From: Clostridiales bacterium
GTDB lineage: Bacteria; Bacillota; Clostridia; Christensenellales; Aristaeellaceae
Length of the DNA: 64,000 nt
Direction of reading: 5' to 3'
Assembly (NCBI GenBank): GCA_012517815.1
Contig: JAAYUF010000169.1
Span: 1-64,000 of the forward strand
Shown: positions 237 to 48,840 of the stretch, in pieces
Layout of the letters: the number at the start of each line of letters is the position of its first letter
Position numbering within the stretch: the stretch's first letter is position 1
The notes under the pieces: model-generated
Told to the model about the DNA's origin: nothing
Seen by the model: only the letters and a program-made list of their open reading frames with translations
The model's database searches: none
Made by a program: the position numbers and the translations under genes

Positions 237-1253
237 TTGACCATGCATGGTAAAACAGTGGCGGCGCTGGCGCTTGTGCTGGCCCTGCTGACGACCCTGC
301 CGGAGGCGCGCGCGGCCGCCGCGCCGCCGGAGGAGAAGCGGCTGGTGGTGTATACCGCCCATAAGGAGGACGTGTACACCCCTATCCTGCGGGAGTTTGA
401 GGAGCGCACGGGCATCTGGGTGTCGGTCGTCGCGGGCGGCACCGCCGAGATGCTGGAGCGCATTTCCTTTGAGGCGGAAGCCCCCGTGTGCGATGTGATG
501 TTCGGCGGCGGCGTGGAAAGCCTCGCGGCGTACAGCCGGTATTACGCCCCGCCGCCGGAGGAACTGGCCCGGCAGGTCGACCCCCGGTATCTGCGGGAGG
601 GGAGCGACTGGCTGCCGTTTTCGGCGCTGCCCATCGTGATGATCTACAACACCCGGCTGACGGGCAACCGCGCGCCGCAGGGCTGGCTGAGCCTGTTTGA
701 GGACCGCTTTGCCGGGCGCATCGCCTTTGCCGACCCCTCGGTGTCCGGCTCCAGCTTCACGGCCCTGTTTACACTGCTGACGGTGCTGCCGGAGGCGGAT
801 ACGCTCGGGCGCTTCGTGCGCGCGCTGAAGAGGCGGGTGCTCGGCGGATCGGGCGACGTGGTTACGGCGGTTGCCAACGGCAGTTGCACCGTCGGCGTCA
901 CGCTGGAGGAAACGGCGCTCAAGGCCATCGCCGCCTCCATGGATATCGCGATGGTCTACCCGGAGGAAGGCACAAGCGCCGTGCCCGACGGGGCCGCGAT
1001 CATCCGCGGCTGCCCGCACCCGGAAAACGCCGCCGCGTTCCTGCGCTTCATCCTGAGCCGGGATGTGCAAACCCGCCTGTGCGCACAGATGTACCGCCGC
1101 CCCGTGCTGGCGGGCATCCCGGTGGACCCGGGCTCGTTTGAGCCGTTTATCCTGATCGCCTACGATATCGGGCTGGCGGGCGAGCGGAAGGCCGGGCTGT
1201 TAGCGGACTGGAGCGACGCCCTTGCGCGCAGCAAGGAGGAAGGGTTGCCGTGA
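237..1253 (+). CDS. Extracellular solute-binding protein, family 1 / iron-type (AfuA/HptA-like)
   Basis: Signal peptide, LVVYTAHKEDVYTPILREFEERTGI start typical of ferric-type binding proteins; overlaps the next gene by GTGA. Start may be ATG at 243. Confidence 0.8.
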   Translation: MTMHGKTVAALALVLALLTTLPEARAAAAPPEEKRLVVYTAHKEDVYTPILREFEERTGIWVSVVAGGTAEMLERISFEAEAPVCDVMFGGGVESLAAYSRYYAPPPEELARQVDPRYLREGSDWLPFSALPIVMIYNTRLTGNRAPQGWLSLFEDRFAGRIAFADPSVSGSSFTALFTLLTVLPEADTLGRFVRALKRRVLGGSGDVVTAVANGSCTVGVTLEETALKAIAASMDIAMVYPEEGTSAVPDGAAIIRGCPHPENAAAFLRFILSRDVQTRLCAQMYRRPVLAGIPVDPGSFEPFILIAYDIGLAGERKAGLLADWSDALARSKEEGLP

Positions 1254-8857: not shown

Positions 8858-9086
8858 ACCCGGCGCCGGATTGAACCCCTGCATAGGCCGCACACGCAGC
8901 GAATGCCCGCAAAACCCTAACAGAGAAGGGATGGCCGGCGCAAGCCCGCAGGCGCGGGGCTTGTGTCAAGCGCGCCGTGCTCTGTGTCCCTGGGCGGCAC
9001 CCGCAGGCGCGGGCCTTTGCGGCGCACAGGCTGCCCACAAGCCCCCGCCACAGCAAAACCGGGGCAGGATCGTCGAAGGGAGGCAC

Positions 9087-9310
9087 GCGGCCTGCGGCCG
9101 CTGCAGCGAAGCAGAAAGCGACCCGCAGAGGGGGTCGCACAAGGGCGGGGCACGGCAGTGCCCGGCTCGCCGATGCCCCCGGGAACAACTCTTGCGGGGT
9201 TTGGGGCGGAACCCTGAAAGCCTATGCCGAAGCATCCGGCCAAAGCGAGCGAACAGCCCGAAGGGCTAGGAGGAGAGCGACGAAAACCGTCCGCATGGGT
9301 TTGCCAACCC
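9087..9310 (+). repeat. Structured intergenic element, copy 1 (5' module ~9087-9207 plus 3' module)
   Basis: Aligns with 36889-37014 and 37026-37235; shared stems with compensatory differences. Confidence 0.7.
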
Positions 9311-9405
9311 GCCACGCGCTGCCGACCGTCGATGGACGACCGGCAGCGCTTTTGTTTCCCCGGCGCCGCCGCCCGCCGGTGACGCAGTGGCGGGAAGCGG
9401 CTCGA

Positions 9406-9965
9406 CGGCCGGTATGCCGAAGGTTCGGACAGTCGCCCAACGGCCGCTGTCCCGCAGGATCGGACAGCAGCTCAACGGCCGCTGTCCCGCGAGTTTGCAC
9501 AGAAGTTCAACGGCCACTGTCCCGCGGGCTCGGGCAGCCACTCAACGACCGCTGTCCCGCAGGCTTGGACAGTCGCTCAACGGCCGCTGTCCCGCGAGTT
9601 CGCACAGAAGTTCAACGGCCGATGCCCCGCGAGTTTGCACAGAAGTTCAACAGCCGCAGTCCCGCAGGCTTGGACAGTCGCCCAACGGCCGCTGTCCCGC
9701 GGGCTTGGACAGGCGCTCAACGGCCGATGCCCCGCGAGTTCGCACAGAAGTTCAACGGCCGCTGTCCCGCGGGCTCGGACAGTCGCCCAACGGCCGATGC
9801 TCCGCGAGTTCGCACAGAAGTTCAACAGCCGCTGTCCCGCAGGATCGTGCAGTCGCACAACGGCCAATGCTCCGCGAGTTCGCACAGAAGTTCAGCGGCC
9901 GTTGTCCCGCGGGCTTGGACAGCCACTCGGCGGCCGGTATCCCGCGGGTTCGGGCAGCTTGCCGA
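9406..9965. repeat. Tandem array of 16 x 35-bp units
   Basis: Every unit begins c(g/a)(g/a)cc and starts exactly 35 bp after the previous one (9406, 9441, ... 9931); two interleaved subtypes. Confidence 0.97.
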
Positions 9966-9993
9966 CAGGCGCAACCGTTTCGAAAATTAAGGG

Positions 9994-10022
9994 TTGACAA
10001 GTGACGATCTATGTTGTATTCT
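9994..10022 (+). promoter_or_regulatory. SigmaA-type promoter of the GntR/UxaA/TRAP operon
   Basis: TTGACA 9994-9999, 17-bp spacer, TATTCT 10017-10022. Confidence 0.75.
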
Positions 10023-27262: not shown

Positions 27263-27289
27263 GGCGGTCAGGCCTTCAAGACGGGCCAA

Positions 27290-27420
27290 GGGCCGCCGGC
27301 CCTTGCGGGGTCAAGGGTGCGGTGCCCCTTGCGGACCCGCGAAACCCTGCGCCGCAGCGTGCCGAGGCGAGCGGGCGAACAGCGCTGAAGGCGCGATCGG
27401 GCGCGCGGTGGCAGGCACCC
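27290..27420 (+). repeat. Degenerate member of the structured intergenic element family
   Basis: cccttgcggggtcaaggg ... gtgccgaggcgagcgggcgaacagcgctgaaggcgcga parallels the 9190-9260 and 37000-37195 segments. Confidence 0.5.
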
Positions 27421-36186: not shown

Positions 36187-36216
36187 TTAATTCAGGACGA
36201 GCATCGGAGGCCCGGT

Positions 36217-36819
36217 ATGTGCGGACGCTACCATGTGGATCTGGAAGAAGAAAACGCGCAGGTGCGCAAAATTCTCATGGAGATCAACAAGCGCTACTTC
36301 GGCACGCCGGAGCGGGAGCAGATGAAGAGCGGCGAGATTTTTCCCACGAACATCGTGCCGGTATGCTCCAACAACCGCAAGCTCCATCCCGGCTACTTCC
36401 TCATGAAATGGGGCTTTTCTGCGTATGAGGGCACGGGGGTCATCCTCAACGCCCGCAGCGAAAGCCTGCTGGAGAAGCCGATGTTCCGCAAGGCTGCGCT
36501 GGAAAGGCGCTGCCTGGTGCCCGCCGGCCACTATTTCGAGTGGGAGCGCCGGGGGCGGGAACGCGTCAAGTACGCCATCCGCCTGCCCAAAGAGGGGCTG
36601 ATCTACATGGCCGGTGTGTACCGCATGGAAGAGGGCGAGCGGGTGCCGTCGTTTGTGATCATCACGCGCCCGGCGGCCGAGGAAATTGCCTTTATCCACG
36701 ACCGGATGCCGCTGATCCTGGCGGACGGGGACCGGGCGGCGTGGCTGAAGCCCGACGCGGATGTGACGGGCCTGTTTTCGCGTGCGCAGGAGCAGGTGCG
36801 GTTTGAGGCGGTCGGGTGA
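36217..36819 (+). CDS. SOS response-associated peptidase (SRAP/YedK/HMCES family)
   Basis: MCGRYHV (Cys2), LNARSESL, VPAGHYFEW, IHDRMP conserved SRAP motifs. Confidence 0.95.
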   Translation: MCGRYHVDLEEENAQVRKILMEINKRYFGTPEREQMKSGEIFPTNIVPVCSNNRKLHPGYFLMKWGFSAYEGTGVILNARSESLLEKPMFRKAALERRCLVPAGHYFEWERRGRERVKYAIRLPKEGLIYMAGVYRMEEGERVPSFVIITRPAAEEIAFIHDRMPLILADGDRAAWLKPDADVTGLFSRAQEQVRFEAVG

Positions 36820-36888
36820 GAGAGCGGCAGGCGACCGTCCCCACCCCCGCCGCGGCGGAGCCGGGTCAAGGGCGGCGGAGGGAAGCGC

Positions 36889-37235
36889 GCGGCCAGTAGC
36901 CGCTTCAGCGAAGCTGAAAGCGACCCGGAGCCGGGAGGTTTCACAAGTGCGGGACACGGGAGTGTCCCGCGCGCCGATGAAACCTCCGGGAATAGCCCTT
37001 GCGGGGTTTGGGGCACCGGAGGCGAGCGCGCTGCCAGTGGCCGCTTCGGCGAAGCCGAAAGCGAACCGAAGGCGAGAGGTTTCACGAGGGCCGGTCACGG
37101 CAGTGCCAGCCCGACGATGAAACCGACCGGAGGAGCCCCAAAGCCTGATGCCGAAGCACCTTGCCAAAGCGAGCAAACAGCCGCGAAGCGGCTATGAGGT
37201 GAGCAACGATGGCCGCGCGTATGGGTTTGTCAACG
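36889..37235 (+). repeat. Structured intergenic element, tandem copies 2 and 3 (36889-37014, 37026-37140) plus 3' module
   Basis: Internal period ~140 bp; stems GGAGGTTTCA/TGAAACCTCC, GCGGGACAC/GTGTCCCGC, AGCCGC-gaa-GCGGCT. Confidence 0.78.
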
Positions 37236-37561
37236 GTTTGAGCCGCGAAGCGGCTGTATGGCAAGCGACGCAAGGCGCCACACAGGCTTTTGGCATCCTG
37301 ACGCGCGCCATGCATGTTCCGGCAGAAAGCCCGCGCTGCAACGGCCAGACCAAGGCCCAGCGCTTGTCGCGGACGATTCCGATCCATCCCGCCCGGATGC
37401 AGCGTTTCAGCAGAAATCATTCGCGATGACCGTTTGTCTGGCTGAGGCAAACGCGGCGCACGCTCCCGATGGAACGTACGCCGCGCCTGATGCTGCTGAT
37501 TTGCCCCGTTGATCCTTTGAATACCGCGGCGCCAGGGCGTGCCGCGCGCCTGCCGTGCTCC

Positions 37562-48705: not shown

Positions 48706-48719
48706 GGGAAAAAGTTGGG

Positions 48720-48840
48720 GCAAGCGGCGAAGCCCTTGCGGGGTTTGGGGCCAGGCTCCAAGCCCCGTTTCTTTCGCCGCGGCGAAAGCCCCCAAGCGAG
48801 CGAGCAGCGCCGCAGGCGCTGTTCGCTCGCTCGGGGGCTA
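48720..48840 (+). repeat. Structured intergenic element family member with long hairpin
   Basis: gcccttgcggggtttggggc motif then AGCCCCC...AGCGCC-gca-GGCGCT...GGGGGCT (48787-48839). Confidence 0.65.

Follow-up and report, generated by a model that had tools for sequence, protein, structure and literature searches.

A MITE family with IS1182-type ends and whole-hairpin target duplications, represented by a two-module copy in a Clostridiales bacterium

We wanted to know what the hairpin-rich intergenic sequence at 36889-37235 is within the 64,000-nucleotide stretch of DNA that was analysed (the window, contig C94 of the source genome G000). The first-pass annotation had read it as tandem copies of a conserved structured element, with another copy at 9087-9310, and had proposed an undescribed ncRNA, a 3'-UTR element or a REP/BIME-like mobile repeat. 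By direct reading, the stems that it quoted for three copies are all present where it placed them. Its mobile-repeat option named the right kind of sequence but the wrong type, as the element has terminal inverted repeats, targets terminators and bears IS1182-type ends. With a probability of about 0.88, we conclude that it belongs to a MITE family moved, presumably in trans, by transposases of the IS1182 type, which would insert at the foot of a terminator hairpin and leave that hairpin duplicated.

The repeat unit and its modules

The proposed search of the genome and its relatives for more copies found 51 matching places in G000 (whole-genome search) and 45 in G077, a genome from another genus of the same family; many of the genomes compared are drafts. 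When the G000 copies were read side by side, the head CCCCCGCCGCAGCGGAACCGGGTCAAGGG and the tail GCCCCAAAGCCTTATGCCGAAGCATTTTGCCAAAGCGAGCGAACAGCCCGAAGGGCTATGAGGCGAGCGG...TATGGGTTTGTCAACGG were constant. Two small hairpins separate them, and each loop is found empty (AAGGGTGAAACCCTT and TTTGGGGCGGAGCCCCAAA) or occupied by a module some 120 bp long; the number of modules per copy is zero, one or two, many copies being module-free, and in L018 and L026 one module lies within another. The element measures about 165-415 bp and contains no transposase gene. It is bounded by imperfect terminal inverted repeats (CAGGCTGTCGAMAAA...TTTGTCAACGGTCTG), the right end occurring as two subtypes, CAGACCGTTGACAAACCCAT or CAGGCTGTCAAAGAACCCAT. 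Short, present in many copies, devoid of a transposase gene, and having terminal inverted repeats and a target-site duplication, it is a MITE. A small peptide encoded in the tail (ATGCCGAAGCATTTTGCC...) was considered and rejected by eye, the consensus frame stopping after about 15 codons.

In the window, the hairpins taken for tandem copies are real but are not separate tandem units: they are two modules nested in two loops of one element (Table 1). The stop codon of the SRAP gene lies 8 bp before this element, whose right end, TATGGGTTTGTCAACGGTTTG, agrees with that of the family. The sequence at 9087-9310 is also a repeat, although its unit is larger than had been described and corresponds to a one-module element at about 9027-9314. 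No duplicated hairpin could be recognised in the flanks of these two copies, and their left ends are degenerate; their history was therefore reconstructed from siblings, to which they were assigned by homology. The palindrome AGCCGCGAAGCGGCT is a candidate leftover target hairpin of the two-module copy, its second copy on the left side not being recognisable. Directly downstream of the one-module copy lies a minisatellite, a coding-like tandem repeat (GQSPNGRCPA, EVQRPLSRGLG and variants) at 9387-10004.

Table 1. Positions of the element copies, their parts and neighbouring features (window coordinates unless a locus is named)
Feature	Position	Strand	Basis or remark
Whole mobile element, two-module copy	36828..37240	+	aligned with other G000 copies that have no, one or two modules; limits deduced from siblings; degenerate at the left
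Left end CAGGCGACCGTCC, diverged from CAGGCTGTCGAMAAA, and head hairpin CCGCCGCGGCGG	36828..36858	+	
Stem CAAGGG/CCCTTG, module 1 in its loop	36867..37001	+	zero-module copies have CAAGGGTGAAACCCTTG at the same place
Module 1	36873..36995	+	pair counts, alignment A2
Module 1 hairpin; outer stem	36901-36922; 36934-36943 with 36978-36987	+	alignment A2
Module 1 inner hairpin	36949-36957 with 36962-36970	+	alignment A2
Stem TTTGGGGC/GCCCCAAA, module 2 in its loop	37007..37142	+	zero-module copies have TTTGGGGCGGAGCCCCAAA at the same place
Module 2	37015..37134	+	hairpin 37042-37063; outer stem 37077-37084 with 37118-37124; inner hairpin
Tail hairpins ATGC-CGAA-GCAC (37148-37159) and AGCCGC-GAA-GCGGCT (37179-37193), conserved linker	37148..37193	+	helices 5 and 6 of alignment A1
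Right inverted-repeat end TTTGTCAACGGTTTG	37226..37240	+	reverse complement CAAACCGTTGACAAA compared with L099 IS1182 end CAGACCGTTGACAAA
Short palindrome AGCCGCGAAGCGGCT	37241..37255	.	abuts right end of the element; direct reading
Upstream gene, SRAP (SOS response associated peptidase)	36202..36819	+	PF02586, E 1.3e-39
One-module copy of the same element	9027..9314	+	left end CAGGCTGCCCACAAGCCCCC, right end GGGTTTGCCAACC; R1 match 9161-9281, 74.4 bits
Terminator hairpin GCGCTGCCG...CGGCAGCGC, then TTTT	9316..9349	+	abuts right end of the one-module copy; direct reading
Element core, weak degenerate match	48709..48835	+	R1 37.5 bits, E 2e-7
Element core, weak degenerate match	27273..27409	+	R1 32.9 bits, E 2.5e-6
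Modules with complementary internal loop	L012 901-1016; L015 748-865; L037 about 650-810		

The core was also seen in head-to-tail arrays, L063 (G003:C5:52320-53442), L064, L065 and L066, which consist of three to seven units with a period of about 160-167 bp and have no target hairpins separating the units. In another genus (G114, G090), the repeats L143-L154 have the core double hairpin GGGTCAAGGG..CCCTTGCGGGGTTTGGGGC..GCCCCAA in common and different ends, and several of them lie just upstream of start codons. We dropped the idea of a phylum-wide distribution of the core double hairpin, as a strict pattern run over 399 genomes matched G000 only; the sole match in an exact-pattern scan of named genomes was the MAG 'Clostridiales bacterium Firm_12'.

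Duplication of the whole target hairpin

The direct repeats on the two sides of many G000 copies are each a complete terminator stem-loop, with a different sequence at each locus, as with GCGCCGCCTGCGTCAAGCAGGCGGCGC at L036, ACGCGGGCCTGCATGCACATGCGGCCCGCGT at L043 and, at L035, a stem-loop of 38 bp. Flank-match scores of 15 copies were 40-71, above those of all mismatched-pair controls (maximum 34). In many other G000 copies the comparison of flanks revealed no recognisable duplicated hairpin, which presumably reflects their age. The copies of G077 are 95-100% identical, and every one of the 32 with both ends read (32/32) stands between two copies of one complete stem-loop, the lowest flank-match score being 38 versus a control maximum of 23. 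These duplications are 20-39 bp long (median 27) and fold as whole stem-loops, with a T-run usually found after the second hairpin copy. At least one neighbouring gene has its 3' end facing the element in 23 of 29 G077 copies, by a crude reading of the ORFs.

Successive insertions left three copies of one hairpin at L075 and at L175, L182 and L185, while at L046 the target was the inner hairpin in a module belonging to another element, and that hairpin was duplicated. In relatives, the orthologous gene ends lack the element and carry one terminator hairpin of unrelated sequence (G103 and G160 for L197; G018 for L186). Behind the L186 orthologue of G103, we noted by eye an apparent degenerate relative of the element flanked by two similar hairpins. 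In most DDE transposons the stagger of the cut fixes a short duplication of constant length. In this family the length of the duplication varies with that of the hairpin targeted, an indication of structure-directed cutting.

IS1182-type ends and the proposed insertion route

A search for PF13751 transposases covered 150 genomes of the family. The transposases of the full-length elements belong to the IS1182 family according to NCBIfam (NF033551 above cut-off; 420.7 bits against a cut-off of 270 for L103). In sister genera, the ends of two IS1182 elements, L099 (CAGACCGTTGACAAA) and L103 (CAGACCGTCGACAAAGCCCAT), match those of the MITE, as comparison with the right-end subtype CAGACCGTTGACAAACCCAT shows, and lie next to hairpins. 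Duplications of a whole palindrome surround the full-length elements L096 (AGCCTTGCATTTTTGCAAGGCT, 22 bp) and L092 (AAACTGCCCAAGGGCAGTAA, 20 bp); the flanks of some other full-length copies, L104 and L101, are unlike each other. A decayed IS1182 element in G000:C2 (L049, about 1078-1606) has the right end CAGGCTGTCAAAGAACCC, that is, the other MITE subtype. This end of L049 abuts a terminator-like hairpin. A separate intact IS1182-family element of G000, L047 (G000:C8:1-1530), has the ends GGACCTGTTGACAAAGTCG and AATATT on both sides.

Because no intact IS1182 element with exactly the MITE ends was found in G000, whose two intact ones end in GGACCTGTTGA(C/A)AAA, nor in G001, G003 or G077, we infer the moving enzyme from the ends. 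The search for a partner transposase in G077 returned only one weak DUF772 match, below cut-off, and the L103 transposase was not found in a scan of viral contigs. The literature states, at second hand, that IS1182 members can target palindromes.

We propose that the element, which lacks its own transposase, would depend for its movement on an IS1182-family DDE transposase acting in trans and recognising ends of the form CAG[AG]CYGTYRAMAAA. Insertion would take place at a palindrome able to form an extruded hairpin, which in most cases is an intrinsic transcription terminator, and would yield the order hairpin, element, hairpin, with one copy retaining the T-run and the gene retaining its terminator. 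The positions of strand transfer, like the extrusion and recognition of a cruciform, are those that the products would imply. In G000, the hairpin loops of the element would in addition have gained modules of about 120 bp, at times nested, and two in the window copy. In the model published for IS1272, joining of the IS 3' ends at the 5' feet of a cruciform duplicates the stem-loop and joining at the 3' feet loses it (PMC5678879); duplication of the whole stem-loop appeared there as a hypothetical route only (pathway b of its Fig 13). IS1272 displays the loss described there and the present family the duplication, with many natural examples of a route previously only drawn.

A wider proposal, to which we give slightly better than even odds, is that this lineage of IS1182-type transposases and their MITEs treats the extruded stem-loop itself as one unit, both in recognising the target and in cutting it, and that strand transfer takes place at both 5' feet. 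Each insertion would then copy the terminator, and the family could therefore colonise transcript ends throughout a genome at low cost, its own modules offering further targets. Copying of the terminator also suggests why insertions at terminators are tolerated.

Covariation, competing explanations and related systems

The observation that paired positions vary together was borne out. In the three named helices of 28 module copies of G000 (alignment A2), standard pairs occupied 87.8% of cells, against 82.7 +/- 0.5% after shuffling and 27-41% when the 3' partner was slid. Changes on both sides affected 13 pairs (5.8 +/- 1.5 shuffled) and 44 cells (15.4 +/- 3.9 shuffled), and not one of 500 shuffles equalled either value. 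In the core outside the modules (alignment A1; 57 copies, three species), 67 double-change cells were counted versus 28 +/- 4. Since pairing exceeds the shuffled and slid controls and double changes exceed the shuffled one, the preservation of structure in module variation is real.

The first-pass annotation had gone on to propose selection on structure, and here the compensatory changes stand but selection at the RNA level does not follow from them alone. In at least three modules (L012, L015 and L037) an internal loop that is normally unpaired has become fully or nearly fully complementary, with perfect palindromes in those of L012 and L015, as expected for the footprint of hairpin-templated (quasi-palindrome) mutation. 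Moreover, the hairpin copies on either side of the plus-strand element of L075 differ by one paired A-T to G-C change. Because of these loops and this paired change, hairpin-templated mutation can give compensatory changes without any RNA function, and the data fit such mutation or selection alike. This is a warning that covariation in bacterial intergenic repeats may mark mobile hairpins rather than regulatory RNAs.

A functional structured RNA, an undescribed ncRNA or 3'-UTR element selected at many 3' ends and only secondarily mobile, would agree with the maintained pairing in modules and core, with folding better than that of shuffled sequences (z -3.9 for a zero-module copy, -4.3 for the window copy) and with linkers such as GCGAGCGAACAGCC..GGCTATGAGGCGAGCG that are strongly conserved in three species. 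We nevertheless regard it as unlikely: the copies vary in number, occupy loci unrelated to each other, and bear target duplications as well as inverted repeats of the IS type; their 95-100% identity in G077 is what recent spread predicts; the complementary loops offer another source of covariation; and the suggested Rfam check gave no Rfam 15 match at gathering score in the window and none up to E 5 in 36800-37300. Tandem amplification of a terminator hairpin with a neighbouring repeat, by recombination or slippage and without transposition, finds a parallel in the arrays of relatives (seven units of about 164 bp in G003:C5), and those of L063, L065 and L066 (G001, G003) have no target hairpins between units and are not accounted for by the insertion model. 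It is, however, highly improbable for the family as a whole, as about 30 different hairpins of G077 each stand on both sides of one and the same element and single terminators without the element occur at the orthologous gene ends. The hairpins being locus-specific and the element constant, insertion is needed.

Similarly, a hairpin-using Y1 (HUH) transposase would be suspected if this were a repeat of the REP/BIME or the IS605/PATE type. Like REP/BIME, it is an intergenic repeat rich in hairpins and present many times downstream of genes, and a GTAG tetranucleotide adjoins the 5' hairpin of module 1. Yet neither REP/BIME repeats, which depend on RAYT (Y1) enzymes for their movement, nor IS605-type elements possess terminal inverted repeats or target duplications, whereas the present element has such repeats, long target duplications and ends that agree with IS1182. 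We consider this origin scarcely credible, and the REP/BIME, IS605 and PATE identities were ruled out by the inverted repeats together with the target duplication.

The preferred reading, a MITE moved by IS1182-type transposases, can be set against known systems. The PATEs of Haloquadratum walsbyi are also non-coding, multi-copy, palindrome-linked mobile repeats, but they are related to IS605-type elements and lack the inverted terminal repeats and target duplication found here (PMC3119063). MITEPye1 of Paracoccus yeei is likewise an intergenic MITE with ends resembling those of the IS1182 family; a chromosome carries 1-3 copies of it, with direct repeats of 4 bp, in contrast to dozens of copies and 20-39-bp whole-hairpin duplications in our case (PMC11578231). 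IS1272, TnSha1 and TnSha2 of the IS1182 family share with it an IS1182-type transposase and a stem-loop target, often a terminator, chosen without sequence specificity (PMC4923244, PMC5678879). IS1272 is autonomous, and it deletes or replaces the target stem-loop, leaving no target duplication, whereas the present element is a MITE that duplicates the whole stem-loop; with the target stem-loop on both sides of the copies, its IS1272-type loss was not encountered. Compared with the published IS1182 relatives, in which the hairpin is replaced or short duplications are made, what sets this family apart is the duplication of a whole hairpin in natural copies.
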